From NCBI RefSeq assembly GCF_002305895.1, contig NZ_CP022203.1:1776501-1840500 (forward strand): a DNA stretch of 64,000 nucleotides, in the 5' to 3' direction. Positions within the stretch are counted from its first letter, which is position 1. Every line of letters starts with the position of its first letter. The DNA comes from Corallococcus macrosporus DSM 14697. GTDB lineage: Bacteria > Myxococcota > Myxococcia > Myxococcales > Myxococcaceae. A program made the translations under genes and the position numbers. Under the pieces are notes generated by a model. It was not told where the DNA came from, did no database searches, and saw only the letters and a list, made by a program, of their open reading frames with translations. This document shows, piece after piece, positions 32,882 to 53,703 of the stretch.

Positions 32882-34792
32882 TTACGCGACAGCGGTGTAC
32901 GAGCCGAACCAGTACGTTGCGGCGAGGCCTGGGAGGTTTTGGTGGCTGTAGAAGGCGAAGCCGTCTCTGTCGGGCACCATGACGGTGGGGTTGCCGACGA
33001 AGCTGCCGCTGGTGGCGTAGGGGGAGAGGGTGATGGAGGAGGGCACGCCAGGAAAGCGACTGCGGAACGTCACCGAGCCTCCCCCGGACAGGTTGTCGTG
33101 CGCGGCGGTGTCGCTATTGCTGTACTGGAGGCCGAGCCGGCCCACCTCGCGCACGCTGCCCGCCAGCTCGAAGGAGGTGTTGTTGGCGGTGCTACTCAGG
33201 GGGAGTCGCAAGGTGCGCGTCCAGGAGGCGAAGGTGGCGGTGAGGCTGGCGTCGTGGAGGAACTCCACCTCGTTGCGCGAGAGGCGGAAGCCGGCGGCTG
33301 CGGCGCCGGTGGTGTCCCGGGCCCAGGCGCTCCCATTCCAGGCGGCGTTGAGGGTGAACCACACCGAGTCGCTGTCGGCGTAGAGGCGCAGCCGCGCGGC
33401 GACGCCGCCCGCGCCCTGGGCGTCGAGGAGGAGGACGCGGCCGGAGCCGAGGACGGGCTGGAGGATGGCCTTGTGCTGGCCCGCCGCCGCCTCGTTGCCG
33501 CGGAAGTGCCCGCCGCCGAAGGCCGCGAGGACTTCGGCGAGGGCGGACTCGACGGTGCCCGCCGTCAGCAGGTTGCCCGCGTCCGCGACGGAGATGGCGG
33601 AGGCTGCGTGGGCCCCCACGGCCTGGGTGACATGTCCGTTGAGGAAGCCCAGCAGCGCGGCCACCTGCTGCCGCAGATTTCCGGCGGCGAGGGCGTGGGG
33701 CGTCCCGGCCAGCACGTCTCCTCCGACGCGAGACGCACCAGGGCTTCCGGCCGTCGTCTCTCCGAGGCGGGTGACGACCTCCTGGAGTTGAGCCTGGACG
33801 CTGGTGGCGGCAACGTAGCCATGGGGCGAAGCGGCGATGGCGCTGGCGTGGTGGGCCCCGGTAGCCGCGCCCTGGTGGGCGTTGAGGAAGCCCAGCAGCG
33901 AGGAGAGCTGCGCGTCCACGGTGCTCGCAGGCAGGAGGTTGGGCGTGCCGGGCACCGCGTCCGCGCCCACGCGGGAGGCGCCCGGTGTGCCGGAGGCGGC
34001 CGAGGAGAGCTTGTCCGCGACTTCGTCTACCGCCTCCTGCACAGTGGTGGAGGTGATGAAGCCATGGGGCGCGTAGTCCACGGCACTCGCCTCGTGCCTC
34101 CGGGCGGCGCCGGAGAAGTGTCCGGCCAGCTCGGCGTCCACCTCGTCCAACGTCGCCTGCACCGTGTCCGCGCTGGGGCTCAGCACGGCCCATGTGCCGC
34201 TTTCCACGGCCACGGAGGTGCCGCGCGCGAAGATGAAGGCTTGGCGGCGCGAGGTGTCCAAGTCCGCGGCGAGAATCTGCGTCTGCCCCGGGCGGCGCCG
34301 GACGTCACACAGCAGCAGCTCGTCGGGCTGGAGGGCGGGCTTGGGCGCCTGGCCGACGGGGCCCTCCGGCGCCTGGCGCACCACCAGCTCGAAGGACTCG
34401 TCGCGGCGGAAGTACACCTGCTGGGAGTTGCCGTCCGTGCGTGGCTCGGACAGCAGGCGGGTGAAGCGCAGGAAGATGCCCACCCACCGCTCGCTGCCCG
34501 AGGTGGAGACGTCGGTGGGGATGCCCGACAAGTCCACTGCGCAGTCCACCGTTTGCCCGGTGCCGAAGAAGATGCGCTGGCCGAGGTTGTCGTAGGCGCG
34601 GCCCGGGGCCGTCAAGTCGACGGAGAGGTTGGGCACCGGGGAGTGCGGCGCGGGCACCGCCCCGGAGATGACGCCGTGGACACCCAAGTCCGAGGCGAGG
34701 TTTCTGTCTGCCTGCTCCAACTGCGCGAAGGCCAAGTCCAGCTCGGCCTCCGTCACGCGCTGCCTGAAGAAAAAATCCAGCCGGTTACTCAT
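32882..34792 (-). CDS. Tail fibre/adhesin-like protein with internal repeats
   Basis: 636 residues, MSNRLDFFFRQRVTEAELDL. Residues 1-200 are the conserved attachment region. Residues 215-430 contain three ~80-residue repeats with shared phrases: HEASAVDYAPHGFITSTTVQ, HHASAIAASPHGYVAATSVQ, and GASRVGADAVPGTPNLLPAS beside GASRVGGDVLAGTPHALAAG. The C-terminal 180 residues are beta-rich, probably the receptor-binding tip. GGAGGG precedes the ATG, and a conserved late promoter-like element lies at 34814-34845. The extra copy of the first codons at 37060 comes from a duplication. Confidence 0.8.
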   Translation of the reverse strand: MSNRLDFFFRQRVTEAELDLAFAQLEQADRNLASDLGVHGVISGAVPAPHSPVPNLSVDLTAPGRAYDNLGQRIFFGTGQTVDCAVDLSGIPTDVSTSGSERWVGIFLRFTRLLSEPRTDGNSQQVYFRRDESFELVVRQAPEGPVGQAPKPALQPDELLLCDVRRRPGQTQILAADLDTSRRQAFIFARGTSVAVESGTWAVLSPSADTVQATLDEVDAELAGHFSGAARRHEASAVDYAPHGFITSTTVQEAVDEVADKLSSAASGTPGASRVGADAVPGTPNLLPASTVDAQLSSLLGFLNAHQGAATGAHHASAIAASPHGYVAATSVQAQLQEVVTRLGETTAGSPGASRVGGDVLAGTPHALAAGNLRQQVAALLGFLNGHVTQAVGAHAASAISVADAGNLLTAGTVESALAEVLAAFGGGHFRGNEAAAGQHKAILQPVLGSGRVLLLDAQGAGGVAARLRLYADSDSVWFTLNAAWNGSAWARDTTGAAAAGFRLSRNEVEFLHDASLTATFASWTRTLRLPLSSTANNTSFELAGSVREVGRLGLQYSNSDTAAHDNLSGGGSVTFRSRFPGVPSSITLSPYATSGSFVGNPTVMVPDRDGFAFYSHQNLPGLAATYWFGSYTAVA

Positions 34793-34962
34793 GCCTGCAC
34801 CCTCCAGAGGAAGGCAAAGGCAGGGCGCGAGAAATCGGGGACATCCCGCAGGGCGTTCAGTGCAGCGTCGTCGTGTCGCCCAGCTCACTGAGCCCCAGCT
34901 CCCAGTGCTCCGGGAGAATGGACGGCAGGGGCTCCACGAGGTCCACGAAGTGGGTGTGGGCG
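34763..34962. repeat. ~195-bp direct duplication, copy 1
   Basis: Closely similar to 37050-37243. It contains the first codons of the fibre gene, the promoter-like element and a remnant of the 3' end of tail protein I ([18 protein letters not shown]). The two copies flank the plus-strand gene at 35233. Confidence 0.88.
34814..34845 (-). promoter_or_regulatory. Late promoter-like element, copy 4
   Basis: ATGTCCCCG, 14 bases, GCCTTTG on the minus strand. It ends 22 bases before the fibre gene ATG. See also 37095, 44245, 53166 and 63925. Confidence 0.75.
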
Positions 34963-35232
34963 AGCTGTGCGGAGGCGCCGGGGGAATGAGCGGCCCCCCC
35001 CCCAGCCGTCATTCGTGCCGTAGCGAGGCGTTCAAGGGGTGGGGTGATTTGGACCTGGAGGAGGGACTCGTCGACGCGTTCCTCGCCTCGGCGAAACGGG
35101 GGACTGCGTCGGGAAGTCCGAATGGGGCAAGGAGACGAAGAGCCTGGCCGCTGCAGATGGCGCTGGTCTTGCTCGCACTAAGCGAGAATCGCGCTCTGCG
35201 CTTCATACGGGACCCAAGTACCATTCGGAAGC

Positions 35233-36957
35233 ATGGACTCTCAGACGGCACTCCGCGAGTTGGAAGCTGAGCTGGACAAGGACGTCAAGGCCTTGCCGCT
35301 CCTGAAACTACCATTTCGGACAGTAGTCTCGGCTCTCTACGGCGTTGTGGATAACCGCTTTCATGGGCCACGGACCTCGCCAGAGAGTCGAGAGAACGAA
35401 GATGTTGGGTCCGCGATAGTTAATAGACTGTCATATCTGCTCCCGCTGCTTATCGACTGTCCTGTGGAGCCGTTGGGACTTAATTTGGCAAATGCGCTAA
35501 GTCCGATCACGCCACAATACCTAGCGGAGCTGGGATTTCTTCTGGCATATGCACACTTCAGTGAGCTGATGCCCGAGGTGCATCGAGGTTACTATTCGGT
35601 AAGCGGAGATGTTGCGTCCGGATTTAGGTTGACACACGCAAGTGATAGTTTTCGCTACTATGAGGCCCGAGATATCGCACTCACCGAAATCTCCATGCCG
35701 TACTATCTCCGGCCAAGACTGAAATTCGAAGCTCAACTGGTCGACGTCGTGAATCGCTTCGTTAAGCAAAAGTTCAGCCATGCGGGAGACCTCGTCACGA
35801 CTGTCACGGTTATCGCAAAGCAGCTCTATGAGGAGTTCCGGCTCGGGATTCGTGAAATTCCAATACTGACGGACGAAGGTTGCAACGCGGCATTTGGGGT
35901 GTCGCTCGAGAAGTTCAACCGCTTCCGATCAGCCTGGGCGGGCATTAGTGAGCTTTGCCTTCATCTAGCTGATGCATTTGCGCACCGAGCTCGCTCCTCA
36001 AGTGGCCGGCGTCAGCGCGAACTGTTCTTTGAAAGCATGGAGTGGACAGCGCCACTGCTTCGGCGGAATTTTCTTGAGGGGCTGGTGCTTGCTCTTACGG
36101 GACTCTCCGGAGGCGAGATTGACCATCTAATGCAGTTCTACTCATTCTCCCCTGCGGAGAAGCGTGCAAGACAAGTGGGAGATGGTTTCTTTCCGCCGAT
36201 TGCTCAGCTCGCCGATTCTCTCCATTTTAATCCAGATGCCCTTCGGTCGATGCTGTCTAGTCGGAACGTGCTGTATGTCTTGAATAGGGCGCATACTCAG
36301 GTCTTTGATGAGCAGGTTTCCGGCCATCTTGAGCCGGCCCTCATCGAAATTGCCAAGCGGCCCCTATCCCGCCTTCCGGATGTCTTCCTGGCGCAGGAAA
36401 TCGACTGGGGTGGAGGCGACATCGACCTCCTTGTGTATAGCGAGAGGGAGAATAGCGCTCTCCACATTCAGGCCAAAGCGGCAATTGCTCCACAAGGTGC
36501 ACGCATGGTCGCGGCGACTGAAGGCCGAGTAAAGGAGGCTCTTCGTCAACTAAGCGCACTCCGAAAGCTTCCGCCTGCTCAGATTGATGCGATTGTTGAG
36601 AAGGCAATCGGTCGCCCTGTTCGTGGCGTGAATTTGGTGGATGTAGTTCTCTGTCGGGCATCGTTCGGTACTGCGAAGATATGGGAACGGCTAGGGTCCG
36701 TTGCAGTTGTTAATCCGTCCATTGTGGCAGCAGTTGTGGAGAGGCTTCTTGCTACGTCCAGTTCAAACCCAGTCACGGCATTCGCCGCGACCGTGCAGGA
36801 AGTTGCTGACGACATTCAGCGTCGAGCCGCCACGGGCTGGGAGGAAGCTACGATAGAGCTTGGTCGCACAACTCTCACAATGCCGTTGCTCAGGCTGGAT
36901 TCCAACGTGCTCTGGGTGGAGCGTCAGAAATCGTATGAGCGCCTTATGGGCAAGTGA
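35233..36957 (+). CDS. Cargo protein with PD-(D/E)XK-like motif
   Basis: 574 residues, opposite in strand to the structural genes and visibly less GC-rich. Residues 1-380 are helical with no recognised family. Near residues 393-416 it has GGGDIDLLVYSERE ... ALHIQAKA, the D-x(n)-(E/Q)-x-K pattern of restriction-like nucleases, with Gln in place of Glu. Similar domains occur in defence nucleases. It stands alone, flanked by a ~195-bp duplication of the structural junction, which marks it as inserted cargo. Defence function is inference from motif and context. Confidence 0.72.
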   Translation: MDSQTALRELEAELDKDVKALPLLKLPFRTVVSALYGVVDNRFHGPRTSPESRENEDVGSAIVNRLSYLLPLLIDCPVEPLGLNLANALSPITPQYLAELGFLLAYAHFSELMPEVHRGYYSVSGDVASGFRLTHASDSFRYYEARDIALTEISMPYYLRPRLKFEAQLVDVVNRFVKQKFSHAGDLVTTVTVIAKQLYEEFRLGIREIPILTDEGCNAAFGVSLEKFNRFRSAWAGISELCLHLADAFAHRARSSSGRRQRELFFESMEWTAPLLRRNFLEGLVLALTGLSGGEIDHLMQFYSFSPAEKRARQVGDGFFPPIAQLADSLHFNPDALRSMLSSRNVLYVLNRAHTQVFDEQVSGHLEPALIEIAKRPLSRLPDVFLAQEIDWGGGDIDLLVYSERENSALHIQAKAAIAPQGARMVAATEGRVKEALRQLSALRKLPPAQIDAIVEKAIGRPVRGVNLVDVVLCRASFGTAKIWERLGSVAVVNPSIVAAVVERLLATSSSNPVTAFAATVQEVADDIQRRAATGWEEATIELGRTTLTMPLLRLDSNVLWVERQKSYERLMGK

Positions 36958-37049
36958 GGGTGTCTTTGGTTGTTTTTTAGCTCTCGATTGTCTGATGTCC
37001 CATCCCATCATGATCTTGTTCACAGGACTCTGTCTCTGCTGCGGTTAGC

Positions 37050-37243
37050 TGAAGAGGTCCAGCCGGTTGCTCATGCCTGCGCCCTCCAGTGGAGTGCAAA
37101 GGCATGGCGCGAAAAATCGGGGACATGCCGCAGGGCCTTCAGTGCAGCGTCGTCGTCTCGCCCAGCTCGCTGAGTCCCAGCTCCCAATGCTCGGGGAGAA
37201 TGGGCGGCAGGGGCTCCACCAAGTCCACGAAGTGGGTGTGCGC
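37050..37243. repeat. ~195-bp direct duplication, copy 2
   Basis: Partner of 34763-34962. It carries the true 3' end of tail protein I, the promoter-like element and a fragment of the fibre gene start (MSNRLDLFS, then stop). Confidence 0.88.
37095..37126 (-). promoter_or_regulatory. Late promoter-like element, copy 5 (duplicated)
   Basis: ATGTCCCCG, 14 bases, GCCTTTG. It precedes only the fibre-gene fragment, so it is the displaced copy produced by the duplication. Confidence 0.7.
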
Positions 37244-38353
37244 GGGCTTGAGGTACTCGACGAGGGTGCGCAGGCGCTGGCGCTCCGCGGGCGAGAGGAG
37301 GCGCTCCACCTCGACGTTGAAGGCGTAGCGGGCGAAGCGCTCCGAGGGCCCCAGCACCCAGTCCACGCCCAGCTCGGACTCGCCCAGCACGAGGGTGTCC
37401 GAGGCGAAAGGGGAGATGGCCCGCACCTCGATCCCCAAGAAGAAGCGGATGGCGTTGCGCAGGCCCAGCGCGGTGCCCTTCTGGCGATACATGTCCACGA
37501 GGACGGAGGCCAGCCGGCGCCGGGCGAGGACGTCCAGCTCGAAGGCGAAGGGGTTGCCCAAGTCCAGGAGGATGGCGTCGAGGAAGGCCTCCGGAGCGCG
37601 CTCCAAGTCGAAGACGTCGGGGAAGGCGTCCAGGTCCGCGAGGAGCAGGTCGGTCACCTCCTGGAGACAGGAGATGAAGCGGCGCAAGTCCCCCGTCACG
37701 TCGTCGCGGCGGTTGTGGCCCGGCAGCATGTCCCAGAGCTGGAAGCTCCGGGAGGACGGCCGAGCTGGACGGAAGCCCGCGAAGGTGGCGCGGTGGTAGG
37801 GGGCGAGCACAGGGTTGTCGTGCGTGTCCGTCACGGCCTCTGCACGCACTTCGTAAACCACGTCCGGCGTCAGCTCCGTGTCGAGGACGAGGTGGACGAG
37901 GGGGCCGTCGGCAGCGGCCTCGAGGGCGGCCACAGGGACTGCGGGGGCGCCACGAGGCGTGAAGGTGAAGCGCGCCGTGGGCGGCACCCGCACGTCCTCG
38001 TCGAAGGCGAGGCGCACCGACTTGGGTCCCACGGCCTGCGCGCCCACGAGGCGCGGGGCCGTCCTGTCTTCCACGGTGAAGGTGTACGTCTCGTCAAGGA
38101 GGTTCTCGCCGCCGGCCGTGGCGGAGACGACGCGCACGGAGACGGTGGCCTGGCTGGCCAGCGGCACCGCCGGGTGGAGCACCACACGCAGGGTGTCCGC
38201 CGTCTGCCTCACCTCCGCGAGTGGCCCCGCGAAGGCAGGCGCCACCTCGACGCTGGCCCCTCCCTCGAAGGCGAGGACGTCGTCCACCCAGACGGTATCC
38301 GCTGCACGAGCCCCGTCTGGAGGGGATGAGCCGGAGCGCGCAAGGTGGCGCGC

Positions 38354-38689
38354 ATGGCGAATGCGGAGCTGTGGAAGAAGCGAGTGGAGGAGTGGCGCAC
38401 CAGTGGGCTGAGCGCGGAGGAGTACTGCCGTGGGAAGGAGTTCACGCCCAGCCCGCTGTACCGGTGGTCGAGTCGACTGGCGAAGGCGGGGCGTGGAGAA
38501 GAGGAGGCGGCGGTGCCGCTGGTGAGGCTGGTTTCGTCCCCAGCCCGCGTCGAAGCCGCACCGGGTGCAGGACTCGTCGTCATTGAGGCACACGGGGCGC
38601 GGGTGCTGGTGCCGGCGGGGGCGGACGTGGCGACGGTGGGTGTAGCGCTGGCGGCGCTGGGTGCGGCGAGCCGGGGCGGGGCGCGATGA
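38354..38689 (+). CDS. tnpA: IS66 TnpA-like protein
   Basis: 111 residues from ATG 38354 (a GTG at 38345 adds three). N-terminal helix-turn-helix: [40 protein letters not shown]-like segment, typical of IS66 Orf1. The C-terminal half is variable. Its stop overlaps the ATG of the next gene. TnpA is an accessory DNA-binding protein of IS66 transposition. Confidence 0.82.
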
Positions 38690-39027
38690 TTCCGCACGGC
38701 GTCGAAATCTTCCTGGGCCTGGAGCCGATTGACTTGCGCTGGGGCTTCGAGCGGCTGTCGGGGTTGGTGGAGGAGAGGCTGGGACGCAAGCCGCGCAGCG
38801 GCGCCCTCTTCGTCTTCTTCGGCAAGCGGCGCACGGCGCTGAAGGTACTCTTCTACGACGGGACGGGGCTGTGCCTCTTCTACAAGCGGCTGGACACCGG
38901 CTGCTTCCAGGTGCCGCGAGGGTTGGAGGAAGGCGCTACCAGCCTGGCGGTGGAGGAGCACGTGCTGGAGGAGTTGCTGGACGGGCTGCGCGTGGAGGCG
39001 CCCAGGCGGGGCCCTCGCCCACATTGA
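38686..39027 (+). CDS. tnpB: IS66 TnpB protein (IS66 Orf2 family)
   Basis: 113 residues. Family landmarks: [77 protein letters not shown]. This is the small Orf2 needed for IS66 transposition, function not fully known. ATGA overlap with tnpA indicates coupling. Confidence 0.92.
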
Positions 39028-39104
39028 GAGGCGCCAGGCGCACCACCGCGCGGGGGCACCAGGCAGGTGTCGACAGCGCGGTGGCGAGTGGTTACAAGGC
39101 CGCG

Positions 39105-40802
39105 GTGTCCACGCACGAGTCTCCCATTTCCGCGCAGGCGCGCATCGCCGAGCTCGAGGCGCTGTTGAGCGCCGAGAGGCAGCGCGCCGCGCAGTTGGAG
39201 AGGGAGCGGGACGTGCTGAAAGCCTCGCACGAGAGGCTGCGGCTGGAGTTGGAGTTACTCAAGCGCCGCCTCTTCATGGCCAAGGCGGAGCGGGTGGACA
39301 CTCAGCAGTTGGAGTTGGAATTCGCCCAGAAGCTGCGCGCGCTGGAAGAGGTGGCCGGCACGCTGGGCATGGCCTCGGCGGAGGCGTCAGGCGGCGCGGG
39401 GGCGAAGCAGAAGTCCAAGCCCAAGGGCCGGCGGGACTTGAAGAGTCTGCCGCTGGAAGAGAGGCGGGTGGAGATTGCGGACCCTCTCTTCGACGAGCTG
39501 GTGGCCCAGGGGAAGGCGGAGAAAATCGGCTTCGAGGAGAGCTGCAAGCTGGCCTGGCAGCGCGGCGGTATGCGGCGCCTCGTCATCGCCCGGGTGAAGT
39601 ACCGCACCGTGGGGGCCGACGGGGAGGCCACGCTGGCCTCGGCCATGGCGCCCAAGGAAGTCTTCTTCCGCTGCCTGGCGGCGCCCTCGCTGCTGGCCCA
39701 CCTGGCCACCGAGAAGTACTGCGACGGACTGCCGTTGTTCCGCATGGAGAAGCGCCTGGCCCGCGACGGCGTGGCGGTGGACAGGGGGACGATGGCGCGG
39801 TGGCTGGAGGACATGGGCGCCACCCTGGGCACCACCGTGGTGGCCGCCATGCGCGAGGAGGCGCTGGCCACCGCCTTCTGCATCGCCACCGACGCCACGG
39901 GCGTGGCGGTGCAGCCGGCCCCCGCCGAGGGGCAGCGCCAGGCGTGCCGACGCGGCCACTACTTCGTCCAGGTAGTCGACAGGGACGCCGTCTTCTTCGA
40001 GTACACGCCGAAGGAGACGAGCGCCGCGGTGCTGGAGCTCTTCAAGGGCTTCAAGGGCTACGTGCAGGCCGACGCCAAGAGCGTCTACAACGCCCTCTTC
40101 CGACCCGCCGAGGACGCGCCCGCTGACGGCGAGGAGGGGGTGTGTCAGGAGGTGGCGTGCTGGGCGCACTGCCGCCGGGGCTTCTGGGAGGCGGCGATGG
40201 CCAAGGACGTCGTCGCCAGGGAGGGGCTGGCGCGCATCAGCCGCCTCTTCCAACTCGAAGACACGTGGAGGGACAAGCCCCCGGAGGAGATTCACCGGCT
40301 GAGGCATGCCCACCTGCGTGCACACGTGGACGCCTTCTTCGTCTGGGCCCAGGAAGAGTACGAGAAGGTGCGGGAGCAGCGCGGCCTCTTGCGCCGGGCC
40401 CTCGGCTACGCCCTGCGCCAGCGCGAGGCGCTGCGCTGCTTCCTCGACGACGGACGGCTGCTGCTTGAGAACAACCGCAGCGAGAGAGAGTTGAGGAGGA
40501 TTGCCGTCGGACGCAAGGCTTGGCTCTTCGTCGGGAGCGATGACCATGCCGAGCGCGCCGGCCACCTCTTCACCCTCATCGCCACCGCGCGGCTGCACGG
40601 ACTCGAGCCGGAGGCCTACCTGCGCGACGTCCTGCGCGTGCTGGCCTACTGGCCCCGCGAGCGCTACCTGGAACTCGCCCCCAAGTACTGGGCCGCCACG
40701 CGCGCTCGCCTCCTCCCCGCCGAACTCGACGCCGAGGTGGGCGAACTCACCGTCCCGGCGCCGGTTGCGGCCTCGTCCGAAGAGCAGTCGCCGCCGCGCT
40801 GA
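39105..40802 (+). CDS. tnpC: IS66 TnpC transposase
   Basis: 565 residues from GTG 39105 (VSTHESPISAQARIAELEAL); GTG 39081 is an alternative. Leading coiled coil, then the zinc-type linker region, then the DDE core: FCIATDATGVAVQPAPAEGQ (Asp), GYVQADAKSVYNALF (Asp), CWAHCRRGFWEAAMA, and LLLENNRSERELRRIAVGRK with the catalytic Glu, followed by WLFVGSDDHAERAGHLFTLI. Complete and uninterrupted, so probably active. Confidence 0.93.
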   Translation: MSTHESPISAQARIAELEALLSAERQRAAQLERERDVLKASHERLRLELELLKRRLFMAKAERVDTQQLELEFAQKLRALEEVAGTLGMASAEASGGAGAKQKSKPKGRRDLKSLPLEERRVEIADPLFDELVAQGKAEKIGFEESCKLAWQRGGMRRLVIARVKYRTVGADGEATLASAMAPKEVFFRCLAAPSLLAHLATEKYCDGLPLFRMEKRLARDGVAVDRGTMARWLEDMGATLGTTVVAAMREEALATAFCIATDATGVAVQPAPAEGQRQACRRGHYFVQVVDRDAVFFEYTPKETSAAVLELFKGFKGYVQADAKSVYNALFRPAEDAPADGEEGVCQEVACWAHCRRGFWEAAMAKDVVAREGLARISRLFQLEDTWRDKPPEEIHRLRHAHLRAHVDAFFVWAQEEYEKVREQRGLLRRALGYALRQREALRCFLDDGRLLLENNRSERELRRIAVGRKAWLFVGSDDHAERAGHLFTLIATARLHGLEPEAYLRDVLRVLAYWPRERYLELAPKYWAATRARLLPAELDAEVGELTVPAPVAASSEEQSPPR

Positions 40803-41074
40803 AAGCGTCTCATTCACCCCGCCAGCATGCGGCGTCCGCCCGGCCCACGGAAGACGGGGCTCGTGCAGCGGATACCCCAGACGCGCGTGGTCGCCCGGGC
40901 AATGCCGTCCGCGCCGACGTCCACCAGCTCCAGCTCCAGCGCGGCATCGACGGGGACATCCGCCTCCTCGGGGCCCGGAGCGCGGTTGAGGAGGAGGGGG
41001 CGGCGCGTCTCGGCGAAGAGGGAGACGGTGTCGACGTAGAGGGCGGGCAGCTCAACCGTGGCCATGGGGCTTCC

Positions 41075-42709: not shown

Positions 42710-44221
42710 TCAGAGGAGCCCTCCGGTGTCCCCGTCCTGCAGGGTGACGCTGCCCAGCACCGGCAGCTCCCGCACCGTCAGCTTCACGTCCGCGGGCAGG
42801 CCGTTGAGTGTCAGGTCCATGCGCGCGTCGCCCAGCTTCCGCACTCCGGGCACGTCGCGGATGACGTTGAAGACGTCGGACCAGGCCACCTCTCCGGCCG
42901 GGAAGCCCTGGGCGTCCTTGAGGTTGAAGCCGAAGTCGATGCGCGGGTTGGGTGTGCCGTCCGGCTCGCTGACGCGGAAGTGCACGGCGAGCGCCTGGCG
43001 AACGCGCGAGGCGACGTCCTGGGCCGAAGCGCCCTGGCGCAGGAAGAGGCGCGCGGAGACGTCCACGCGCCGGTACACCGGCTCCTGGACGCTGACCTGG
43101 AAGGTGAGGGTGCAGGGGTAGACTTCGGTGACTTGCCGCAGCACCTGGGCCTTGAGGGCTGGCGTGGGGACTCCGCCGCCCTGGGGCACCACGTAGAGGA
43201 TGCCGGCGTTCTCGCCAACGGAGGCGTCCTCGTTGGACGTCAGCATGAGGGCACGCGCCACGCCGGGCAGGCGCCGGGCGTTGATTTCGAAGTCCTCGCG
43301 GGAGACGGTGCGCGTCAGGGCCCGGAGACTCTCGGGGGCGAGCAGCTTCGCGGAGGCCACCGTCTGCCTGTCCGCGCCGCCCGAGGCGGGGGCGGGGTTG
43401 TGGACGGACACCTGCACCGCGTGGCCGTGGGCGTCGCGGAAGCTGCCCTCCAGGACGACGAGGCGCCCCGCGTCCACGTTGCCGGCGGCGCCGCCACCCG
43501 TTTTGTACACCACCGCCACGGTGCCAGCGGGCGGCAGGCCGTTGGTGCCGGTGCCGAAGCGGACGGTGGCCTTGTCTCCCTGGTCAACCGAGACGAGGAA
43601 GTGAGCGTCGTTGGCGCGGGAGTTGAGGAAGGTGTCCACCTCGGTGAAGGCACCCTGGGCGGTGGACACCCGGGCGGAGCCGTCGAGGTAGGGGGCGAAG
43701 TCCAGGTGCGCCTCGAAGTCGGCGAGGCCGCGAGCGTCGAAGAGCTGGGTGTGCGTCTTCGAGTGCTCGGCCACGGCCAGGACGCGCGGCGGGTTGGCGC
43801 CGGCCGGAATGGTGACGGACGAGAGGAGCTGGAAGCGGACGGCCTCCGTCACCTCCTGGGTGCGGACGACGGTACCGGCGGGGAAGGTGACGGGGGCTGC
43901 AGGAGGCTGGGCCAGGCGCAGCTCCACCTCGGCCGTGGCCGCCTGGGCACCGTGAAGCCGGTAGCCCAGCATGCGCGCCAGGGCGATGACGTTGCGGCGC
44001 TGGGTGGCCGAAACGAGGCGCGACTCGCGGGCGAGGTGGCCCTGGTAGAAGCCGAGGACGTCGCCGACGAAGGCGTACATCTCCAGGAGCAGGTTGCCGA
44101 AGCTGGCGACGTCGAAGTCCGTCCAGTCCGGGAAGACACTCTTCACGAGAGCCACGAGGCGCGCGCGCAGGGCGTCGAAGTCGCGATGGGTGTAGTCAGT
44201 GGACGCGGGCAGAAGTGGCAC
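42710..44221 (-). CDS. Baseplate assembly protein J (gp6-like)
   Basis: 503 residues from GTG 44221 ([20 protein letters not shown]), preceded by GGAGG. N-terminal region DFASFG-like: [56 protein letters not shown]. Middle and C-terminal blocks match baseplate J proteins ([40 protein letters not shown]). J forms the ring around the hub in contractile tails. A late promoter-like element lies 24 bases upstream. It is the first structural gene after the second cargo site. Confidence 0.87.
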
Positions 44222-44244
44222 GTCGGCGAAGGCCTCCACCGGGA

Positions 44245-44279
44245 GACAAAGGCCTGCAGCCCACTTTTTTCGGGGACAT
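44245..44279 (-). promoter_or_regulatory. Late promoter-like element, copy 3
   Basis: ATGTCCCCG and GCCTTTG separated by 17 rather than 14 bases, in front of the baseplate J gene. Confidence 0.65.
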
Positions 44280-44285: not shown

Positions 44286-45127
44286 GGTGCTTGGCGTTGG
44301 AAGCTGCCTCGTCGTCCTCGTACGAGGCCCAAGCGCTTCAGTACCTGGCGCTCCGGCCACAGGTAGGATGGGGCACATCAACTGGTGTGCGAATTCCCAT
44401 CGACGTGAGGAGTCCTTCCAGCATGGATGCAGCGTGGTTCTGCCCGACGTTCGACTTCCGACGCCACCCGCCTGACGAGGTGATGCTTCGAGGAACTCGC
44501 CTCCTGATTGAGGACATCGGCACCAAGCACGTCGACCATTGCTTCTGCGGCCGGTGTGGCGTGCCGGTTTACAGGTCGCCCACCGACGGGGAGAGGACAC
44601 TCGGTGGCCGCGTAGCGCGCCTGTCGCATTACCCTGGCTATGACCATGTTCCATGTTCCGAGCGCCCATCGAAGGCCAGCGCTACGGAGCGCGGCGCCAC
44701 TCCATCAGGACGCCCGTCCTTTGTTTCCGGGCCAGAGACGACGCTGGTACCCGTTTGGCTGCCAGCCCGCGAAGCCCCGCGTGGACTGGTGTTGCCGCGC
44801 ACCTTTGTTGATGGTCCGGTGAGCCGCTTGGTTGATGGCCTCGGGACTACGGTTCCCCAGTCGCGTCAAGGCCTTGGCCGCCTCCGGCGGTGCCCTTCGG
44901 GCAGCCCTGACTCGACCGGAGAACCGCAGGATGGGAGCAATCAGTTCCGCTTCTCGCGGAATCTGCTGTCGCGTCAATGGCTTGGGTCCCATCACGAGCG
45001 AGATTTCTGGTGGTCCGGCTCTGTGATGGCATTTACGGAGCCTCTCCTCGGGAGTCCCTCAACCAGTGTGCGCGAGAGCAGGCGTCCGTCCCTCAAATAG
45101 CGTGCGCGGCAACACCTGGGTGGAGAG
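44286..45127. other. Cargo-site region with unassigned fragments
   Basis: About 840 bases. A plus-strand frame near 44424 reads MDAAWFCPTFDFRRHPPDEV with HCFCGRCGVPVYRSPTDGER, possibly a broken metal-binding protein. Minus-strand frames at 44378-44647 and 44705-44995 are equally plausible. None has a supported start. It looks like decayed cargo beside the gene at 45128. Confidence 0.35.
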
Positions 45128-45619
45128 ATGGGCTCTTCTCTCGACCATGAACGCAAAATGGCGCGGCCACGCGTCGCTTCAGGAGTTGCACGCTCACGCT
45201 CGAGTGCCCGGGTCAGTGTTCAGCAGATCGCGGACAGCCTGCCCGCCTTGCTCGAAAATCCCTTTGCGACAGGTGGGCGACTTCGCGACTTCATCCGTCC
45301 CATCCATCTGATTGACGGTGCGGACGAGGGAAGCGAACCAATGCTGTGGTGGGGCCGTTTACATAGCGTCAGCCATGGCAATGCGATGAATTGGCTCAAC
45401 ATCCGCACGCGTGACCGCTCCTCAGCAGCTTTCTGGGTGAAGCACAGTGTGGTGCCGAAGTTCCGCTCCGCGTGGGAGGAAGACCGGATTGTCCTCGCAT
45501 ATGCCTCCTTCGTGAGGGAGACCAAGAACGGGCGTCCGAAGCTGCGCTGGGACATTCATGACAAGGGGCAGATCGCCCTCGTGCCTGTAGAGCACGAATC
45601 GTGTTTGACGAATCTGTAA
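45128..45619 (+). CDS. Hypothetical cargo protein
   Basis: 163 residues (MGSSLDHERKMARPRVASGV). The C-terminal 115 residues look folded (LWWGRLHSVSHGNAMNWLNI, AFWVKHSVVPKFRSAWEEDR, GRPKLRWDIHDKGQIALVPV). No family recognised. It is opposite to the surrounding structural genes and ends 55 bases from the gp25 stop. It is less GC-rich than they are. Placement between gp25 and J at a conserved promoter-like site parallels the two other cargo loci. Confidence 0.6.
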   Translation: MGSSLDHERKMARPRVASGVARSRSSARVSVQQIADSLPALLENPFATGGRLRDFIRPIHLIDGADEGSEPMLWWGRLHSVSHGNAMNWLNIRTRDRSSAAFWVKHSVVPKFRSAWEEDRIVLAYASFVRETKNGRPKLRWDIHDKGQIALVPVEHESCLTNL

Positions 45620-45674: not shown

Positions 45675-46061
45675 TCAAGGTCCCCGCTGGAGGGGAACGT
45701 CGAAATCCGCTGCCGTGTCGCCCTCGCGCACGCGCACATGAAGCGTCAGTATGGCTGCGTCCTGCTCGACGCGGATCTGCACGAGCTGGACGCCAGGCAG
45801 CCAGCGCGCGAGCGCGTCACGGACGTACACGCGCGCCAGCTCCGCCAGCACCGTGTCGTTGCGCTGGTGGCGAAGGCGCGAGAGGCCCGCGCCGAAGCTG
45901 GTGCGCCAGGGGAGCTCGCCTGTGGAGTGGGGCGTGGTGCCTTCCGTCAGCAGCACCTGCCGCACCTTCGAGGCGAGCAGCTCGGCCCCGGTGCCGGAGG
46001 CGAAGTCCCGCTTTTTGTCTCGGCCGAAGGGGACGAGGAGATTCTGGAGCACTCGACTCAT
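45675..46061 (-). CDS. gp25-like baseplate wedge protein
   Basis: 128 residues: MSRVLQNLLVPFGRDKKRDF ... LTEGTTPHSTGELPWRTSFG, AGLSRLRHQRNDTV. The GELPWRTSFGAGL block is the GPW/gp25 signature (a T4 gp25-type wedge). It initiates sheath assembly at the baseplate. It is 7 bases downstream of the previous gene. Confidence 0.85.
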   Translation of the reverse strand: MSRVLQNLLVPFGRDKKRDFASGTGAELLASKVRQVLLTEGTTPHSTGELPWRTSFGAGLSRLRHQRNDTVLAELARVYVRDALARWLPGVQLVQIRVEQDAAILTLHVRVREGDTAADFDVPLQRGP

Positions 46062-46068
46062 GGTGTCC

Positions 46069-46740
46069 TCACGGAAGGGGGATGGCCGCGCGCACCTGCT
46101 GCAGCGTGCGGACGATGGCGTCGAGTGGTGCGATGGCGCCATCGAGCGGGCCTTCGAGGCTGGAGAAGTCCGGCACCTGGGGGCCGCCCACCAGGCCGAG
46201 GAGGACGTTGAGGAGGGCCATGAGCTGAGAGAGGGCGGCCAGGGCCTTGCCGACGTTGACGGCCTCCTGCGCGACGTTGGCCTCCGCGCAGCCGGCCACA
46301 GCCAGGAGGCCCGCGTCTCCAAGCTGGGCGGCGCGCAGCCGGGCCTGCCCGACGCTCGACAGGCGCAGTTGCAGGTGGAGGAGCTGGCCACGGGCATGGC
46401 CCAGCTCGCCCAGGACGATGTCGATGACGCCCACCACCGCGACTGGCACCGAGAGCTGGGGGACGAGGCGGAGCAGCTTGGACACCTTCTCGGCCAGGTT
46501 CGGCAGGGCCGCGGCGATGGCTGTCGGGTCCGGCGGCGGCCCCAGCGCATCCGGTATCGCCTTCACGACTTCGAAGACAGCGAGCACCGCGCCGATGATG
46601 TCGAAGAGGGGCGTGAGCGTCGCGAGCGCCGGCTGGACGGCCTGCAGGAGCTGGTGGTGCTGCAAGGTGGCGCCGCCAGGCAGGGTGAGGGTTGGCGCCT
46701 CGGGCAGGGGAGGGATGTGGATGCAGATGGGCAGCGCCAT
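46069..46740 (-). CDS. Hypothetical tail protein, hydrophobic helices
   Basis: 223 residues starting MALPICIHIPPLPEAPTLTL. Mostly amphipathic and hydrophobic helices (ATLTPLFDIIGAVLAVFEVV, VPVAVVGVIDIVLGELGHAR). No family recognised. Located between the gpV-like spike gene and gp25 in the tail operon; a baseplate or tail-tip role is inferred from position. Confidence 0.72.
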   Translation of the reverse strand: MALPICIHIPPLPEAPTLTLPGGATLQHHQLLQAVQPALATLTPLFDIIGAVLAVFEVVKAIPDALGPPPDPTAIAAALPNLAEKVSKLLRLVPQLSVPVAVVGVIDIVLGELGHARGQLLHLQLRLSSVGQARLRAAQLGDAGLLAVAGCAEANVAQEAVNVGKALAALSQLMALLNVLLGLVGGPQVPDFSSLEGPLDGAIAPLDAIVRTLQQVRAAIPLP

Positions 46741-47327: not shown

Positions 47328-47337
47328 GGTGGGCTCG

Positions 47338-48621: not shown

Positions 48622-48959
48622 TCGCTGGCCCTCCGCCGCTGCTCGCTGAGGATGACGTCGGTGAGGACACGCAGCGAGGGGATGTAGAGGCGCCGCCCGA
48701 CCTCCAGCTCCAGCGTCGCATCGATGATGGGCTCCGGCTGGAAGTCGGCGATGGCCCACCAGAAGCCGCAGGCGCGCGGGAGGGGCGCGAAGTAGCGGCC
48801 GGCGAGGCCCCAGAGGGAGTTGCCCTGCGCCACGAGGTGGACGCGCGTGTCCGCGTGCGGCTGGAAGCCGTAGGGGACTCTCTCGGAGAGGAAGAGGCGG
48901 CCGGTCTCGTCCCGCAGGCCGAGGGAGAAGGAGTAGCGGCTGCCGGCGTGAGGGGCCAC
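48618..48959 (-). CDS. LysM-like tail protein (gpX/gp53-like)
   Basis: 113 residues from GTG 48959, overlapping the preceding stop by one base. LVAQGNSLWGLAGRYFAPLP followed by WWAIADFQPEP and VGRRLYIPSLRVLTDVIL is the tail LysM module used by gpX and gp53 proteins to fix the hub to the tube. It is in the correct order after the CIS tube-type gene. Confidence 0.78.
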   Translation of the reverse strand: MAPHAGSRYSFSLGLRDETGRLFLSERVPYGFQPHADTRVHLVAQGNSLWGLAGRYFAPLPRACGFWWAIADFQPEPIIDATLELEVGRRLYIPSLRVLTDVILSEQRRRASE

Positions 48960-49471
48960 TACGGCACCTCCTGGCGTAGCTGCTCGGAGGTGACGCGGGT
49001 GTCCAGCACCTCCTCGAAGGTGACGATGGCGGTGTAGACGAGGACGCGTCCGTCCACGGCGAGCTGGCGGTACTGGAACTCCACGCTGGCGACGACGCAC
49101 TCCACGGTGAGGAGGCCGGGCCAGAGGACGAGGACACGCGGCGGTGTCGTCGCCAGCACACCCTCGGTGCCCGCCGGGGGCACGGTGAGGGCACGCAGGA
49201 AGCCGCGGAACGCCATGATGTTGGAGGCGTCGGCCTGCTGCGTGGCGAAGAAGGCGTCGAGGTAGAACTCCACGCCTGCCAGTTGCCGGTTGGAGGTGCC
49301 CTGAAACTGGAGCACCTGGTGGGAGAGGCCAGGCACCGCCAGGCGGTTCCAATTCACCTGGAGCTTCTCGGTGAGCTGGGTGGGGTTGAAGAGGCACTCC
49401 ATGGCCTCGCCGGTGAGGACATTCACGAGGAGGCAGCGCGGAGGACGGGCAAGGCCGGCGGCGATGGACAT
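48959..49471 (-). CDS. Tail tube-initiator/CIS tube-type protein
   Basis: 170 residues: [40 protein letters not shown]. The CLFNPTQL motif and following strands match the CIS_tube (Pvc7 N-terminal) family that links tube and baseplate in contractile systems. The C-terminus has a long strand set ([20 protein letters not shown]). It lies 15 bases downstream of the tape measure gene. Confidence 0.78.
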
Positions 49472-49486
49472 GTCGGGGCCCGCCTC

Positions 49487-52180
49487 TCAGTAAGACGCCA
49501 TGGGGGAGAAGCTGCGGGAGGCGGCGTCCCTCTCGGCGCGCGCCGTGGCCTGGGCAAGCACCTCGCCGTCCACCTGGACACTCACGAGGACGGGCGCGGC
49601 GGGAGTCGAGGCTGGCTGCGAGGAGAGCACCTCGGGCTGGGGCAGCGAGGCCTGGAGGGCCGCCACCGCCGGCATGGACGAGGACTCCAGGGGCCAGTCC
49701 ACCGGCGAGGTGGGCGCGGCCGTGGTGACGACGGAGGCGGGTGTGGCGGCGCCCCCACTGGAGTCCTCAAGGCCGAAGGCGACGGACAAGTCCCGATGCA
49801 GACCCAGTCGGGCCGTGCGCAGCGCCTGCTGGAGGCCGGTGTTCGCACCGAAGAGGCTCGCCACCGCGTCCACGACACCGAGGATGGCGCCCACCAGCTC
49901 CAGGAGGACGCCGGAGATGGCGTCGACCGTGCCGAAGACGATGAGCCGCAGCCCTGTCCACGCCTCGGCCCAGTTGCCGGTGAGTGCCCCGCCCAGCGTC
50001 AACACCACGCCCCAGAAGACGTCGACGATGCCGGAGAAGGCCGCCAGGGCTGCGTTGAGGACGCCTCCCACCACGGACACCACGAGGGAGACTGCGGACA
50101 CCAGCACGCCCACGACGGTGGTGATGTTGCCGATGGCAAACCCGATGGCCTGCCCCATGGCCACCCAGATGCTGCTGCCGTCCCTCGCGGCGGAGCTGGT
50201 GCCTAGGAGGCCAGAGAGCGCCCCACCGAGGACGCGGCCCAGGTGCGCGAGGCTGCCCAGGAGGACGTCGACACCGGCCTTCATGTAGCCCCACTGCCCC
50301 GCCAGCCCTTCGGCCACTTCGGCACCGGCCGTCATGCCCATGACGACGAAGTCGAAGACGCGGGCGAGGGCGCGCCCCACCGTAGCCCCCACCTCGCCGA
50401 AGGCAGCGAACTTCGCGGCGGCGGTGGCCGCGTCGTCCCTCTCGGAGAGGAAGCCCAGCGCCGCGCCCACCCGCCCCAGCGTCGCCTGGAAGGCGTCAAG
50501 GGTGGGGCGCGCGGCCTCCAGGCCAGCGGAGAAGCCGTCGGCGATGCCAGAGAAGAAGCTGTGGATGCGGTGTGCCCACAGGTAGACGTTGATGAGGAAG
50601 TCCTTCAGGCCGGCGCTCTCCGCGCGGCCCAGCTCCTCCCGCACCGCGCCGGAGAAGCCTCCGTCCTCGAAGAGCTGGACGAGGCCGCGGAAGGCGAGCG
50701 TCACCTGCTCCTGCACACGCCGGACGAAGTCGCCCAGGCCACCGAGGTTGTGACGGAAGGCGTAGGCGAGGCCGGCTGCGGCGACGCCCAGGAGGACGAC
50801 AGCGCCCACGGCCGGAAGCACCGTGGCGAGGAGGCCCCCCAGCGTGAGGCCCAGCACCTTGAGGCCCACCACCATCAGCGCCAGGCCCACCTTGGCGGCG
50901 ATGACGGAGCCGACGAGGGTAGCGAGGGCACCAACTCCGAGCGCGAAGGCTGCGAAGGCGCGCTTCACCGGGCCGGGCAATGCCTGGAAGACACCCAGCA
51001 CCTGCTGCACCGCGCTGGCGACGAGGGTGACGAGGGGCTTCAGCACCTGGCTGAAGGGCTCTCCGAGAACGATGGCCAGCGTTTCCAGGTTCCCGGACAA
51101 CAGCGTCTTCTGCCCCTCGAAGGTATCCAGCATCTGCTCGCGGAACTTCGTGGCCGTGCCGCCCGCATTCTCGAACTGGTCGCGCAGGTACTTGAGGGCA
51201 TCGGCGCCTCGGACGACTTCGCCGGTGTCCTTGCGGATGCCGTTGGAGAACTGCGTGAGGATGGCATTCACGCCACCGAGCGCTTCGCGGCCGAACGCCT
51301 TCAACAGGAACGCGGAGCGCTGCGCCGCCGTCATGCGCTCAAGGGCGGGCGACAGCTTGTCGAGGATGCCGAGGAAGGAGAGGAAGTTGCCCTTGGAGTC
51401 GGTGACAGCAACGCCCAGTCCACGCAGGTGCTTCTGCACTTGTGGATCCGCCATGCGCTCCATGGCCACGGCCACGGCGGTGGAGGCGCGCTCCACGCCG
51501 GGGACGACATTCTTGACCAACCCCAACGCGATGAGCGTCTCGGGCAGGGACTGATTGAGGGCCTGCGCACCACGCGCGGCGGTGCCGAGGGCCAGGGGTA
51601 GTTCGTTCGCGCTCAAGGCGAAGACGTTGACGGCTTGGAGCATCTGGTCGACGGAGATAGCGGCCTTGTCGGTGGAGATGCCGAAGGCCTTCATTGCTTG
51701 GCTGGCCAAGCCCGCTGCGCCCTGGGGCGTCAGCTCTCCCAGCGAGCCACCCGCCAGGTCCAACACCGGCAGCAGCAGCTTCATGGCCTCCGCGGCTGTG
51801 AAGCCGGCCTGGGTGAGCTCGCGCAGGCCCAGCACGGACTCGGTGGGGGTGAATTGCGTGGCGAGGCTTGCCTTGATGGCCGCGTCACGGAGTTGCCCAA
51901 GCACTTCGGCCGAGGCGCCAGAGACGGCGCCCACGCCCGCCACGGCCTGCTCGAATTGGCCGGCGGTGTTGGCCAGGGACAGCGACGCGCCCAGGGTGAC
52001 GGCGCCCGCCGTGAAGAGGGACATGGCGACGCCGAGCCGCTGGAAGGCACCCTCAATGCGCGCGGTGCCCAACCCCACGCGCCTGTCCATGCGCGTGAAG
52101 TTGACCTCCACCTGGGAGAAGACTCCCGAGGCCAAGTCTCTCGCCGTAAGGACGAAGCCCAAGCCGAGGTTGTTGAGCAT
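49487..52180 (-). CDS. Tape measure protein
   Basis: 897 residues. Conserved TMP domain at 45-330: LFTAGAVTLGASLSLANTAG, ASLATQFTPTESVLGLRELT, MKAFGISTDKAAISVDQMLQ, ALGLVKNVVPGVERASTAVA. The centre holds several membrane-like helices (LVGSVIAAKVGLALMVVGLK, LPAVGAVVLLGVAAAGLAYA). The length sets the tail length; 897 residues suggest a tail of roughly 100-130 nm if the usual 1.5 angstrom per residue holds (established relation, applied as inference). Confidence 0.9.
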   Translation of the reverse strand: MLNNLGLGFVLTARDLASGVFSQVEVNFTRMDRRVGLGTARIEGAFQRLGVAMSLFTAGAVTLGASLSLANTAGQFEQAVAGVGAVSGASAEVLGQLRDAAIKASLATQFTPTESVLGLRELTQAGFTAAEAMKLLLPVLDLAGGSLGELTPQGAAGLASQAMKAFGISTDKAAISVDQMLQAVNVFALSANELPLALGTAARGAQALNQSLPETLIALGLVKNVVPGVERASTAVAVAMERMADPQVQKHLRGLGVAVTDSKGNFLSFLGILDKLSPALERMTAAQRSAFLLKAFGREALGGVNAILTQFSNGIRKDTGEVVRGADALKYLRDQFENAGGTATKFREQMLDTFEGQKTLLSGNLETLAIVLGEPFSQVLKPLVTLVASAVQQVLGVFQALPGPVKRAFAAFALGVGALATLVGSVIAAKVGLALMVVGLKVLGLTLGGLLATVLPAVGAVVLLGVAAAGLAYAFRHNLGGLGDFVRRVQEQVTLAFRGLVQLFEDGGFSGAVREELGRAESAGLKDFLINVYLWAHRIHSFFSGIADGFSAGLEAARPTLDAFQATLGRVGAALGFLSERDDAATAAAKFAAFGEVGATVGRALARVFDFVVMGMTAGAEVAEGLAGQWGYMKAGVDVLLGSLAHLGRVLGGALSGLLGTSSAARDGSSIWVAMGQAIGFAIGNITTVVGVLVSAVSLVVSVVGGVLNAALAAFSGIVDVFWGVVLTLGGALTGNWAEAWTGLRLIVFGTVDAISGVLLELVGAILGVVDAVASLFGANTGLQQALRTARLGLHRDLSVAFGLEDSSGGAATPASVVTTAAPTSPVDWPLESSSMPAVAALQASLPQPEVLSSQPASTPAAPVLVSVQVDGEVLAQATARAERDAASRSFSPMASY

Positions 52181-52183
52181 GCG

Positions 52184-52489
52184 TTACCTCCGCTTCGCGG
52201 CCTTCTCCAGCGCCTTGGCTTCTTGGGCTCGCTGCTGGCCGATGCGTTCGAGCAGCCAGTCCCTGTCCGAGGTGGGCAGCTCCAGGGCGTCACCGAGGGG
52301 AGCTGCGAGGCCGCTGCCTCCGTGCTGGTGCCAGCACAGTTGGAAGAGGCCCTCGCGCCACGTCTCCAGCGTCACACCGGGGAAGAGGTGGAGCGCTCCC
52401 GGCGCCTCGTCGTCCGTTGCGTCCCCGGAAGGAAGAAGCCCCGGTCGAAAGGGAGCTCCACCTCCTGGCGCATGAGGCACTCGGGGCAC
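52184..52489 (-). CDS. Tail assembly chaperone extension (overlapping, -1 frame)
   Basis: The first 33 codons overlap the 257-aa gene in another frame; the protein-like part is [20 protein letters not shown] to [12 protein letters not shown] (52415-52184). It is in the -1 frame relative to the upstream gene. GGGG at 52423-52426 would allow slippage giving a fusion ...[14 protein letters not shown]. Tail chaperones just upstream of the tape measure commonly use such a frameshift. A simple sequence error in the G-run is the alternative. Confidence 0.65.
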
Positions 52490-53145
52490 TCGACTTCGAG
52501 GGTGGTGTCCACGCCGCAGTCGACGGCGTCAAACTCGTCGACGAGGAAGTCGGCGTCGCGCAGGCTCAAGTCTTCAAGGAAGCGGCGCTTGTCGCGCGCG
52601 TCCACGCCGTCGACATCCTGCACCCGGTAGGCGAGGACGGAGGACAGCAGTTTCTCGGGCGCCGCACGCTGGAGCTGCGGCAGCCGCCGCTCGTCCTCCC
52701 CCGTCAGCAGCTTGAAGCGCACGCGCGTGCCAGAGTCCGGCAGCGTCGTCTCGAATCGGTTGCCGGCCATGAAGGCCGCGCGGCTCGTGTCCGAGAGGGC
52801 GCGCACCGGCAGTTGCGTCAAGTCCAGCTCCCAGTCGATGCGGGCCCGGCAGGCAGCATTCTGGCAGGGGACGGCGAAGGCATACTCGGGGCCGTAGGTG
52901 AGCACGCGCACCTGGAGGAGCGCGTAGAAGCGGTCCCCCTGCAGCACCTGGCCCCAATCCACCCTCCCGTCGGCGAAGGCGTAGGGGCCTGCTTCCAGCA
53001 GATCTTCCCAGCACGCGGAGAGCAGCTCATCCACCTGGCCGCCGCTCTTCGCCAGCTTCCTGTCCGCGAGGACGCGCTCCTCCCGCACTCGCATTCCCCG
53101 AATACGGCCCGTCAGCCCCGAGGGGCATGAGATGATGTCCGCCAT
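52372..53145 (-). CDS. Tail assembly chaperone/gp26-like protein
   Basis: 257 residues, [20 protein letters not shown]. Contains a zinc-ribbon-like pair CQNAAC near residue 92 and CPEC near 224. [15 protein letters not shown]-type and [12 protein letters not shown] segments resemble gp26-type baseplate or chaperone proteins encoded before tape measure genes. The last 25 residues ([17 protein letters not shown]) are out of character and may be the unframed tail of a frameshifted product (see 52184). GGAGG precedes the ATG; a late promoter-like element is 20 bases further up. Confidence 0.72.
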
Positions 53146-53165
53146 GTCGTCCTGCCTCCGGGAAG

Positions 53166-53197
53166 GACAAAGGCATCGGACGGCAAATCGGGGACAT
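53166..53197 (-). promoter_or_regulatory. Late promoter-like element, copy 2
   Basis: ATGTCCCCG, 14 bases, GCCTTTG, 21 bases before the gene at 53145. The divergent cargo gene starts 36 bases away on the other side. Confidence 0.75.
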
Positions 53198-53232
53198 CGA
53201 TAGACGCAGCACCAAATCTGCGTGGGGGACTC

Positions 53233-53703
53233 ATGAGCGCGTTGGTCTGGTCAGGGTCGTTTCGGATTTCAGAGCTGCTGGCGCGGTGCATGGACGAACA
53301 GGTCCTGCCTCCAGAGTCGAAGGCCGTCTATCTGGTCTCTCGGCGAGGCTGGGAGGGGGAGCCCACCGATGCCTGTATCCCGCTCTACGTCGGAGGGAAC
53401 ACGGGCTCCTCGCAGCGCTTTCGCACTCGGGTCGGGGACCTGATCGCCGACCTGCATGGCTTCTACGGTGGCGGGACAGGTCACCACAGTGGTGCGCAGG
53501 AGCTTCGGCGGTGGTGCATCAGCAACGAGGTCCACCCAGGACGACTCTTTCTGGGCTGGGCCACGAAGAAGCCCTGGTGTGGGAGGTGTACCGAAGTTCT
53601 TCTCGCGAAGAAGTTCGCTCCCTCATGGGCTGAGCGGGCGCCTCTGTGCAATGTCAGGCGCCCGCCGGGGTGCAGCACTCATGGAAAGTACGTGACTGGC
53701 TGA
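53233..53703 (+). CDS. GIY-YIG-like cargo protein
   Basis: 156 residues on the opposite strand to the tail operon. [13 protein letters not shown] ... [20 protein letters not shown] fits the GIY-YIG pattern (VYLV and LYVG strands, then the helix with a conserved Arg). A later Glu in [15 protein letters not shown] fits the catalytic Glu. Cys residues in WCGRC and CSTHG are extra. GIY-YIG enzymes cleave DNA or RNA. The stop is 3 bases from the tail-tube stop, facing it. Homing or defence cargo is possible. Confidence 0.6.

Follow-up and report, generated by a model that had tools for sequence, protein, structure and literature searches.

Why does a prophage module encoded largely on one strand hold plus-strand genes at a few sites, and what sets those sites? 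The question is raised by a 64,000-nucleotide stretch of the Corallococcus macrosporus DSM 14697 genome (NZ_CP022203.1, positions 1,776,501 to 1,840,500 of the forward strand; the whole stretch is called the window here), which contains most of a contractile-tailed Myxococcus prophage with its late genes on the minus strand. A preliminary description of this DNA reported three plus-strand cargo loci in the tail and baseplate module, each beside a late promoter-like element, and read them as programmed insertion sites for accessory, perhaps defence, genes. We found the three open reading frames (ORFs) where it had placed them (53233-53703, 45128-45619 and 35233-36957). Comparison with related prophages showed high-turnover inserts at specific positions, an association of these positions with the element, cargo families that keep to their own junction, and duplicated ends of flanking genes. 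We conclude that each prophage probably has at least four accessory-gene hotspots, these loci among them, which lie at the boundaries of late operons and are refilled by recombination between sibling prophages.

Inserted DNA is concentrated at three junctions of the late region

We placed the structural genes of 53 loci from genomes and viral contigs by tblastn and measured all gaps between them, using a close set of 30 relatives and a wider set that adds distant relatives. A gap was counted as filled at 300 bp or more at the three junctions in question, and at 200 bp or more above the minimum at all others. The three variable junctions are L/M (tail tube and T4-type baseplate protein), R/S (gp25 and baseplate-J) and X/Y (P2-I-like tail protein and gene Y), and these are the ones that lie directly upstream of the prophage-exclusive element. 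Inserts occurred at these junctions in 59 of 73 cases among the 30 close relatives, compared to 4 of 449 at the 21 other structural junctions; tallied by junction, three of three were variable versus none of 21 (Fisher p=0.0005). Gaps in the close relatives ranged from 499 to 4549 bp at L/M, from 576 to 5809 bp at R/S and from -32 to 2250 bp at X/Y, where 12 of 26 close relatives were occupied and most of the others were empty (-32 bp). Gaps at the 21 other junctions were nearly constant, with fixed lengths at elementless intergenic ones (K/L, 210 bp in 18/18; M/N, 191 bp in 20/20; J/K, 79 bp in 18/18), and the P/R gap measured 197-198 bp in 25/25 close relatives. The four exceptions elsewhere were an IS66-type insertion in the window itself, about 520 bp at N/O in one contig, and gains at D/E and F/G.

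The mark of a prophage accessory hotspot, a locus of high turnover flanked by two phage genes that related prophages conserve, was found here. Different genes occupy the same junctions between syntenic flanks, as the preliminary description had anticipated, and the two outcomes that it had named as contrary to its reading, identical cargo in all relatives and equally frequent filling of elementless junctions, were both absent. The two prophages of this genome also carry different cargo.

Over all loci, 147 ORFs were predicted in the cargo of the three junctions, and these fell into 112 sequence clusters (the calls used a simple composition score, and some short ORFs may be spurious). None of the 19 multi-site clusters was mixed between junctions, compared to a mean of 13.7 and a minimum of 7 in shuffles. 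Cargo ORFs in the close relatives lie on both strands (53 plus, 42 minus), so that opposite orientation, which had been taken as part of the pattern, is not a general rule. Mean cargo GC in these relatives was 0.61 versus 0.69 for the flanking genes, with 85% of cargo ORFs under the 5th percentile of the flanks. The lower GC reported for the 35233 and 45128 genes was borne out: 55-56% at 35-37 kb and about 64% at 45 kb, versus about 70% across most of the module.

The element is exclusive to the prophages and predicts a further hotspot

The core pattern of the element is ATGTCCCCGAttT-N11-GCCTTTG. Within the window, CGGGGACAT occurs 7 times versus 0.54 expected. The 8.97-Mb genome (a single contig) contains 11 matches to the two-block pattern TGTCCCCGA-N12-19-GCCTTTG, all within two prophages, the one described here and a related one at 2.25 Mb, compared to 0 for a control read backward; the promoter-like element is thus real. 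Its consensus over 89 sites in close relatives consists of gATGTCCCCGAttT, 11 loosely conserved bases and GCCTTTGtc, followed by a GGAG-type ribosome-binding site and a start codon. The 16-base spacing from GTCCCC to CCTTTG would be compatible with a promoter for a phage-directed polymerase. Copies precede M, S, Y and A, as well as the portal gene, and each of the five copies in the window has a late gene directly downstream:

63927..63955, minus strand: element upstream of gene A, marking a fourth variable junction, a1/A, mostly past the window end
53168..53196, minus strand: element upstream of M (T4-type baseplate gene)
44247..44278, minus strand: element upstream of the baseplate-J gene S, a variant with a longer spacer
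37097..37125, minus strand: element copy after X
34815..34843, minus strand: element upstream of Y

Because the element also precedes gene A, outside the three loci first described, it predicted a further hotspot at a1/A, and here the association held: the gap up to the element is about 404-408 bp in nine prophages and about 0.8-2.8 kb in six (G036, G071, G065, G064a, G055b and G064b). The portal junction looks variable, with an upstream neighbour that aligns only partly, and was left out of the hotspot count.

Insert edges point to recombination between sibling prophages

Empty X/Y sites consist of X, a 14-base spacer and the element. At filled X/Y sites the insert typically opens at or near the X stop codon and closes at the element's ATGTCCCC. 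Across the junctions, inserts in most close relatives stop at the element, with the other edge often lying at the upstream gene's stop codon or close to it, and most inserts carry a single element. Eight loci have a partial second copy of the end of a neighbouring gene: copies of X (X', 82-243 bp) in own1, G055a, G064b, G038b and G078b, a copy of R (R', 158 bp) in G006, and copies of S (S', about 335 bp) in G023 and L061. Five of the eight (own1, G055a, G064b, G078b and L061) are closer to the gene of another prophage, by small margins, and for the other three the resident gene is the best or a tied match. These partial copies suggest recombination between sibling prophages with duplication, of a homologous or illegitimate kind, rather than a site-specific cassette system.

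We propose that the late region is composed of several minus-strand transcription units, each of which would be opened by the same phage-specific element acting as a late promoter. Foreign genes would be tolerated only in the gap that follows a unit's stop codon and precedes the next unit's element, likely because an insert there leaves the operon unbroken and the promoter joined to its genes, and this tolerance at operon boundaries would set the positions of the hotspots. The positions may then be refilled or replaced through recombination between siblings in the conserved flanking genes, a route to which the observed duplications point, and which would keep cargo with its junction and sometimes bring along a partial end of the neighbouring gene. 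The resident prophage probably expresses its cargo without use of the late promoters, and the family assignments suggest that many cargo genes may act in phage exclusion or host competition.

The term "programmed" implies instead that the element serves as a target for recombination or integration and that the cargo consists of mobile cassettes placed by a dedicated recombinase. Inserts do terminate at the element, the same element marks all hotspots, and some inserts are flanked by two elements (the 35233 locus, G055a and G064b at X/Y, and G023 at gp25/baseplate-J). However, cargo families never cross between junctions that share the element, the 5' edges of inserts vary, the duplicated stretch is the end of a specific flanking gene (X', R' or S'; 82-336 bp) and not a fixed core site, and the cargo holds no recurrent recombinase, just ordinary transposases and one group II intron protein. 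With no sign of a dedicated integration system, we consider programmed insertion quite improbable; what survives of the preliminary description is recurrent accessory insertion sites, with a defence role supported for part of the cargo and, by its gene neighbourhood only, for the plasmid homologue of the 35233 gene. An integron-like cassette system was rejected, since no fixed site was found at both cassette ends, the duplicated sequence being junction-specific, and no cassette exchange was seen between sites sharing the target (0/19). It is very doubtful, too, that the element itself guides cargo acquisition, with a phage-encoded recombination or replication-linked process joining DNA there and building an ordered multi-site array.

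Two further explanations concern the cargo itself. The gaps could passively tolerate random DNA with no selected role, and the decay of the window prophage (an IS66-type insertion in X, a MITE-like element in cargo 2) and the transposases or remnants at some junctions are what such neutral landing would leave. But many cargo ORFs are intact, the same cargo is kept open across siblings (at 56-85% identity for the GIY-YIG-like gene of cargo 1 and 90-99% for the 35233 family of cargo 3), and known defence families recur, all of which make neutrality unlikely. Another reading, that the variable DNA codes for alternative versions of tail or receptor-binding components, might be suggested by the tail and baseplate genes flanking the inserts, including the P2-I-like tail protein, and by one X/Y insert that encodes a beta-helix-type protein. 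We give this reading almost no credence, since no tail-fibre family appears among the listed cargo matches, which include nucleases, ATPases, transporters and glycosyltransferases, and the cargo lies on either strand, often opposing the late genes.

The reading we prefer, hotspots at operon boundaries refilled from siblings, has several observations weighing against it. The loci behind the counts of 59/73 and 4/449 are mutually related, so that sites are not independent and a p-value at the level of individual cells is not to be taken literally. Some more distant relatives carry DNA at N/O or P/R without a recognised element, about 520 bp of extra DNA are present at N/O in one close relative, and a few close relatives have one junction at which no element was recognised. 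No empty L/M site was seen among the relatives, so that insertion there is deduced from turnover and not from presence or absence. The element is only promoter-like and its role as a promoter is read from its sequence; the copy before the baseplate-J gene S has a spacer 3-4 bases longer, and no sigma-70-like site was found in the region scanned, by a scan that may not suit this host. Lastly, the window's three cargo proteins (or their close intact homologues) have no Pfam or PADLOC match and the window ORFs none in PHROGs, so that their predicted defence role rests on motifs and neighbourhood.

Cargo genes of the window

The first cargo gene lies at L/M:

53707..54651, minus strand: tail tube gene (Phage_T4_gp19, profile match), upstream flank
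53233..53703, plus strand: cargo 1, a GIY-YIG-like protein of 156 aa, assigned from motif residues
52372..53145, minus strand: T4_baseplate gene M (profile match), downstream flank

The cargo 1 protein contains VYLVS ... LYVGGNTG...RF..R ... E ... N, and the motif-like residues are conserved in three homologues. The gene is present in 6 of 96 family genomes, and each match inside a mapped prophage sits at L/M. Pfam, PHROGs and PDB sequence searches gave no match and a viral-contig scan for relatives was empty; an AlphaFold2 model was of low confidence (pLDDT 43) and too poor to use.

The second lies at gp25/baseplate-J:

45675..46550, minus strand: gp25-like baseplate wedge gene R (profile match), upstream flank
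44291..45619, plus strand: cargo 2, one split gene, recognized from an intact 332-aa ORF in a sibling
44787..45117, no strand: MITE-like element (about 330 bp) that splits cargo 2, bounded by terminal inverted repeats (GGTGTTGCCGCGCAC...)
42710..44239, minus strand: Baseplate_J gene S, downstream flank; 44239 is an estimated start

What had been described as a decayed cluster at 44286-45619 is a single gene split by the MITE-like element, which has two more near-full-length copies in the genome (96-100% identity). The 163-aa plus-strand ORF at 45128-45619 is part of this disrupted gene, and the intact homologue is found in M. dinghuensis (L001:9047-10042, minus strand). For S, a longer ORF reaches 44332, and many relatives align only from about residue 18-36, which suggests that translation of S probably begins downstream of the element. 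The GTCCCCG/CGGGGAC inverted ends at this junction were considered as terminal repeats and dropped, as the left end falls within the coding sequence of some R genes.

The third lies at X/Y:

37139..38593, minus strand: gene X (Tail_P2_I-like with a Big_5 domain), upstream flank; about 90 first ORF residues are derived from an insertion sequence
37051..37248, no strand: junction copy 1 (repeat comparison), with the true X 3' end, the element and the first codons of a truncated Y copy
35233..36957, plus strand: cargo 3, a 574-aa protein with PD-(D/E)XK-like residues (E367...D398...Q413-x-K415)
34769..34966, no strand: junction copy 2 (repeat comparison), with a partial X 3' end, the element and the intact Y start
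32882..34792, minus strand: gene Y, a late protein (ORF), downstream flank

The two junction copies form a 198-bp direct repeat of 89% identity on either side of the 35233 gene, with one element in each. Cargo 3 is present in 3 of 96 genomes, at X/Y in every case. Outside the prophage family, only two Rhizobium plasmid proteins were found (29% and 26% identity), and the gene of the 29%-identical homologue adjoins UvrD-helicase, AAA ATPase, AbiJ-NTD4 and zeta-toxin genes. Residues E367, D398, Q413 and K415 are conserved between cargo 3 and this homologue, with no Pfam match, and would fit a PD-(D/E)XK nuclease. No relatives were found in viral contigs or the phage collection and PDB sequence searches had no match; the AlphaFold2 model (pLDDT 37) was unusable.

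Cargo functions across relatives

Defence-like cargo in the relatives includes a HEC-04 candidate (E 1.3e-221), GmrSD, HNH nucleases of mREase_IV type and a DUF6602/NucC-like (PD-DExK-like) nuclease, together with matches to the HEC-05, PD-Lambda-3_B and TmtA models. Other cargo encodes a chromate transporter, an MFS transporter, MerC, glycosyltransferases, transposases or insertion sequences and one group II intron protein, and many cargo ORFs match no family. It is right to call the cargo accessory and in part defence; "defence island" would be too strong. The largest cargo gene seen encodes a 1754-aa protein weakly similar to STAND proteins of the Avs4 type (L010:4310-9571, G027), at gp25/baseplate-J.

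A lipobox scan for SitA-type toxins gave three candidates, which are unproven. Putative lipoproteins, one with a Gln_deamidase_2 domain, occur at gp25/baseplate-J in G064b (L004:7479-9919) and G071 (L162:2467-3507), and are candidates for outer-membrane-exchanged competition proteins resembling SitA/SitB.

Relation to known prophage hotspots

P2-like prophages and P4-like satellites of E. coli carry antiviral hotspots (Rousset et al., 2022, PMC9122126). The junctions described here resemble them as small (about 1-5 kb), high-turnover loci between two conserved phage genes that hold diverse defence and other genes, and one cargo ORF matches DUF4238, a family with a protein among the validated P2/P4 systems (PMC9122126). 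However, the P2/P4 case has one hotspot per phage, by cos (P2, P4) or near integrase or repressor genes (other species), whereas the myxobacterial prophages have at least four each within the virion-gene region, all with the same late promoter-like element.

Lambdoid morons, by the definition quoted in PMC4378225, are genes whose composition is foreign and which have been inserted between neighbouring genes in related phages. The inserts here are similar in kind, and X/Y shows both presence or absence between adjacent genes and deviating base composition; unlike morons, they fall for the most part at junctions that carry the element and can span several genes or 5.8 kb. The region scan identified no promoter and terminator around the cargo of the kind that morons have, nor an excess of terminator-like sites, and it may not suit this host. 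The regions of genomic plasticity in Mu-like phages of P. aeruginosa (PMC4378225) likewise hold variable accessory ORFs at several fixed loci per phage, in a combination particular to each genome, but those ORFs are mostly short (34-100 codons) and mainly in the left arm, whereas the genes here are larger and lie in the structural region beside a repeated element.

Mx-alpha of Myxococcus xanthus is a large prophage with several divergent copies per genome and variable sitBAI toxin-immunity loci (PMC6070905, PMC5562445). Compared by description only, it shares with the present family a large, multi-copy Myxococcus prophage with variable accessory loci and is the obvious candidate relative; at the three junctions we found no confirmed sitBAI locus, just the lipoprotein candidates in G064b and G071. 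In the literature searched, which was covered in part, we found no report of an element-marked, multi-hotspot pattern in myxobacterial prophages. The present case differs from known prophage hotspots in that each prophage has several, all within the virion-gene region and marked by copies of a single regulatory-type element. If this is true, searching for one short DNA signature would reveal several accessory-gene pockets at once in each member of this widespread family of myxobacterial prophages, and candidate genes for defence and competition, many of them without a known family, could be drawn directly from there. It would also make testable the general question of whether hotspots are set by recombination machinery or by transcription-unit boundaries.

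The prophage and minor observations

The late genes encode the portal (just outside the window), gene A, capsid, sheath, tube, T4-type baseplate protein, tape measure, hub, spike, gp25, baseplate-J and the P2-I-like tail protein. Gene A (ORF 62374-63726) combines matches to a D12-class adenine methyltransferase and to an XkdF-type prohead protease. The pairing is unusual, and in close relatives the alignment covers nearly the full length of the ORF. Many Myxococcaceae (Myxococcus, Corallococcus, Citreicoccus) carry relatives of baseplate-J at 88-99% identity, often with two or three in one genome, and more distant ones are found at 60-76% identity. No close isolated phage was found in the phage collection, the matches listed there being distant baseplate-J ones only (<27% identity).

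The rest of the module is largely on the minus strand, as had been stated, except for a plus-strand IS66-family transposase (38871-40802) that had been overlooked. It belongs to the following insertion:

38295-40875 (approximate), plus strand: IS66-type insertion sequence at the 5' end of tail gene X, with an 8-bp target duplication

Five more full-length copies elsewhere in the genome share 97-100% identity. This insertion is a recent event, distinct from the hotspot cargo, and its position suggests that the window prophage is probably defective in X.

At the downstream end of the late region, a putative amidoligase (28357-29379; Amidoligase_2, E 1.9e-60) is kept in relatives. A 42-nt repeat around CATACACGCTCT occurs at 29364-29405, 30109-30150 and 31956-31997 (74-79% identity), near the ends of short minus-strand ORFs, and may be a second regulatory repeat.

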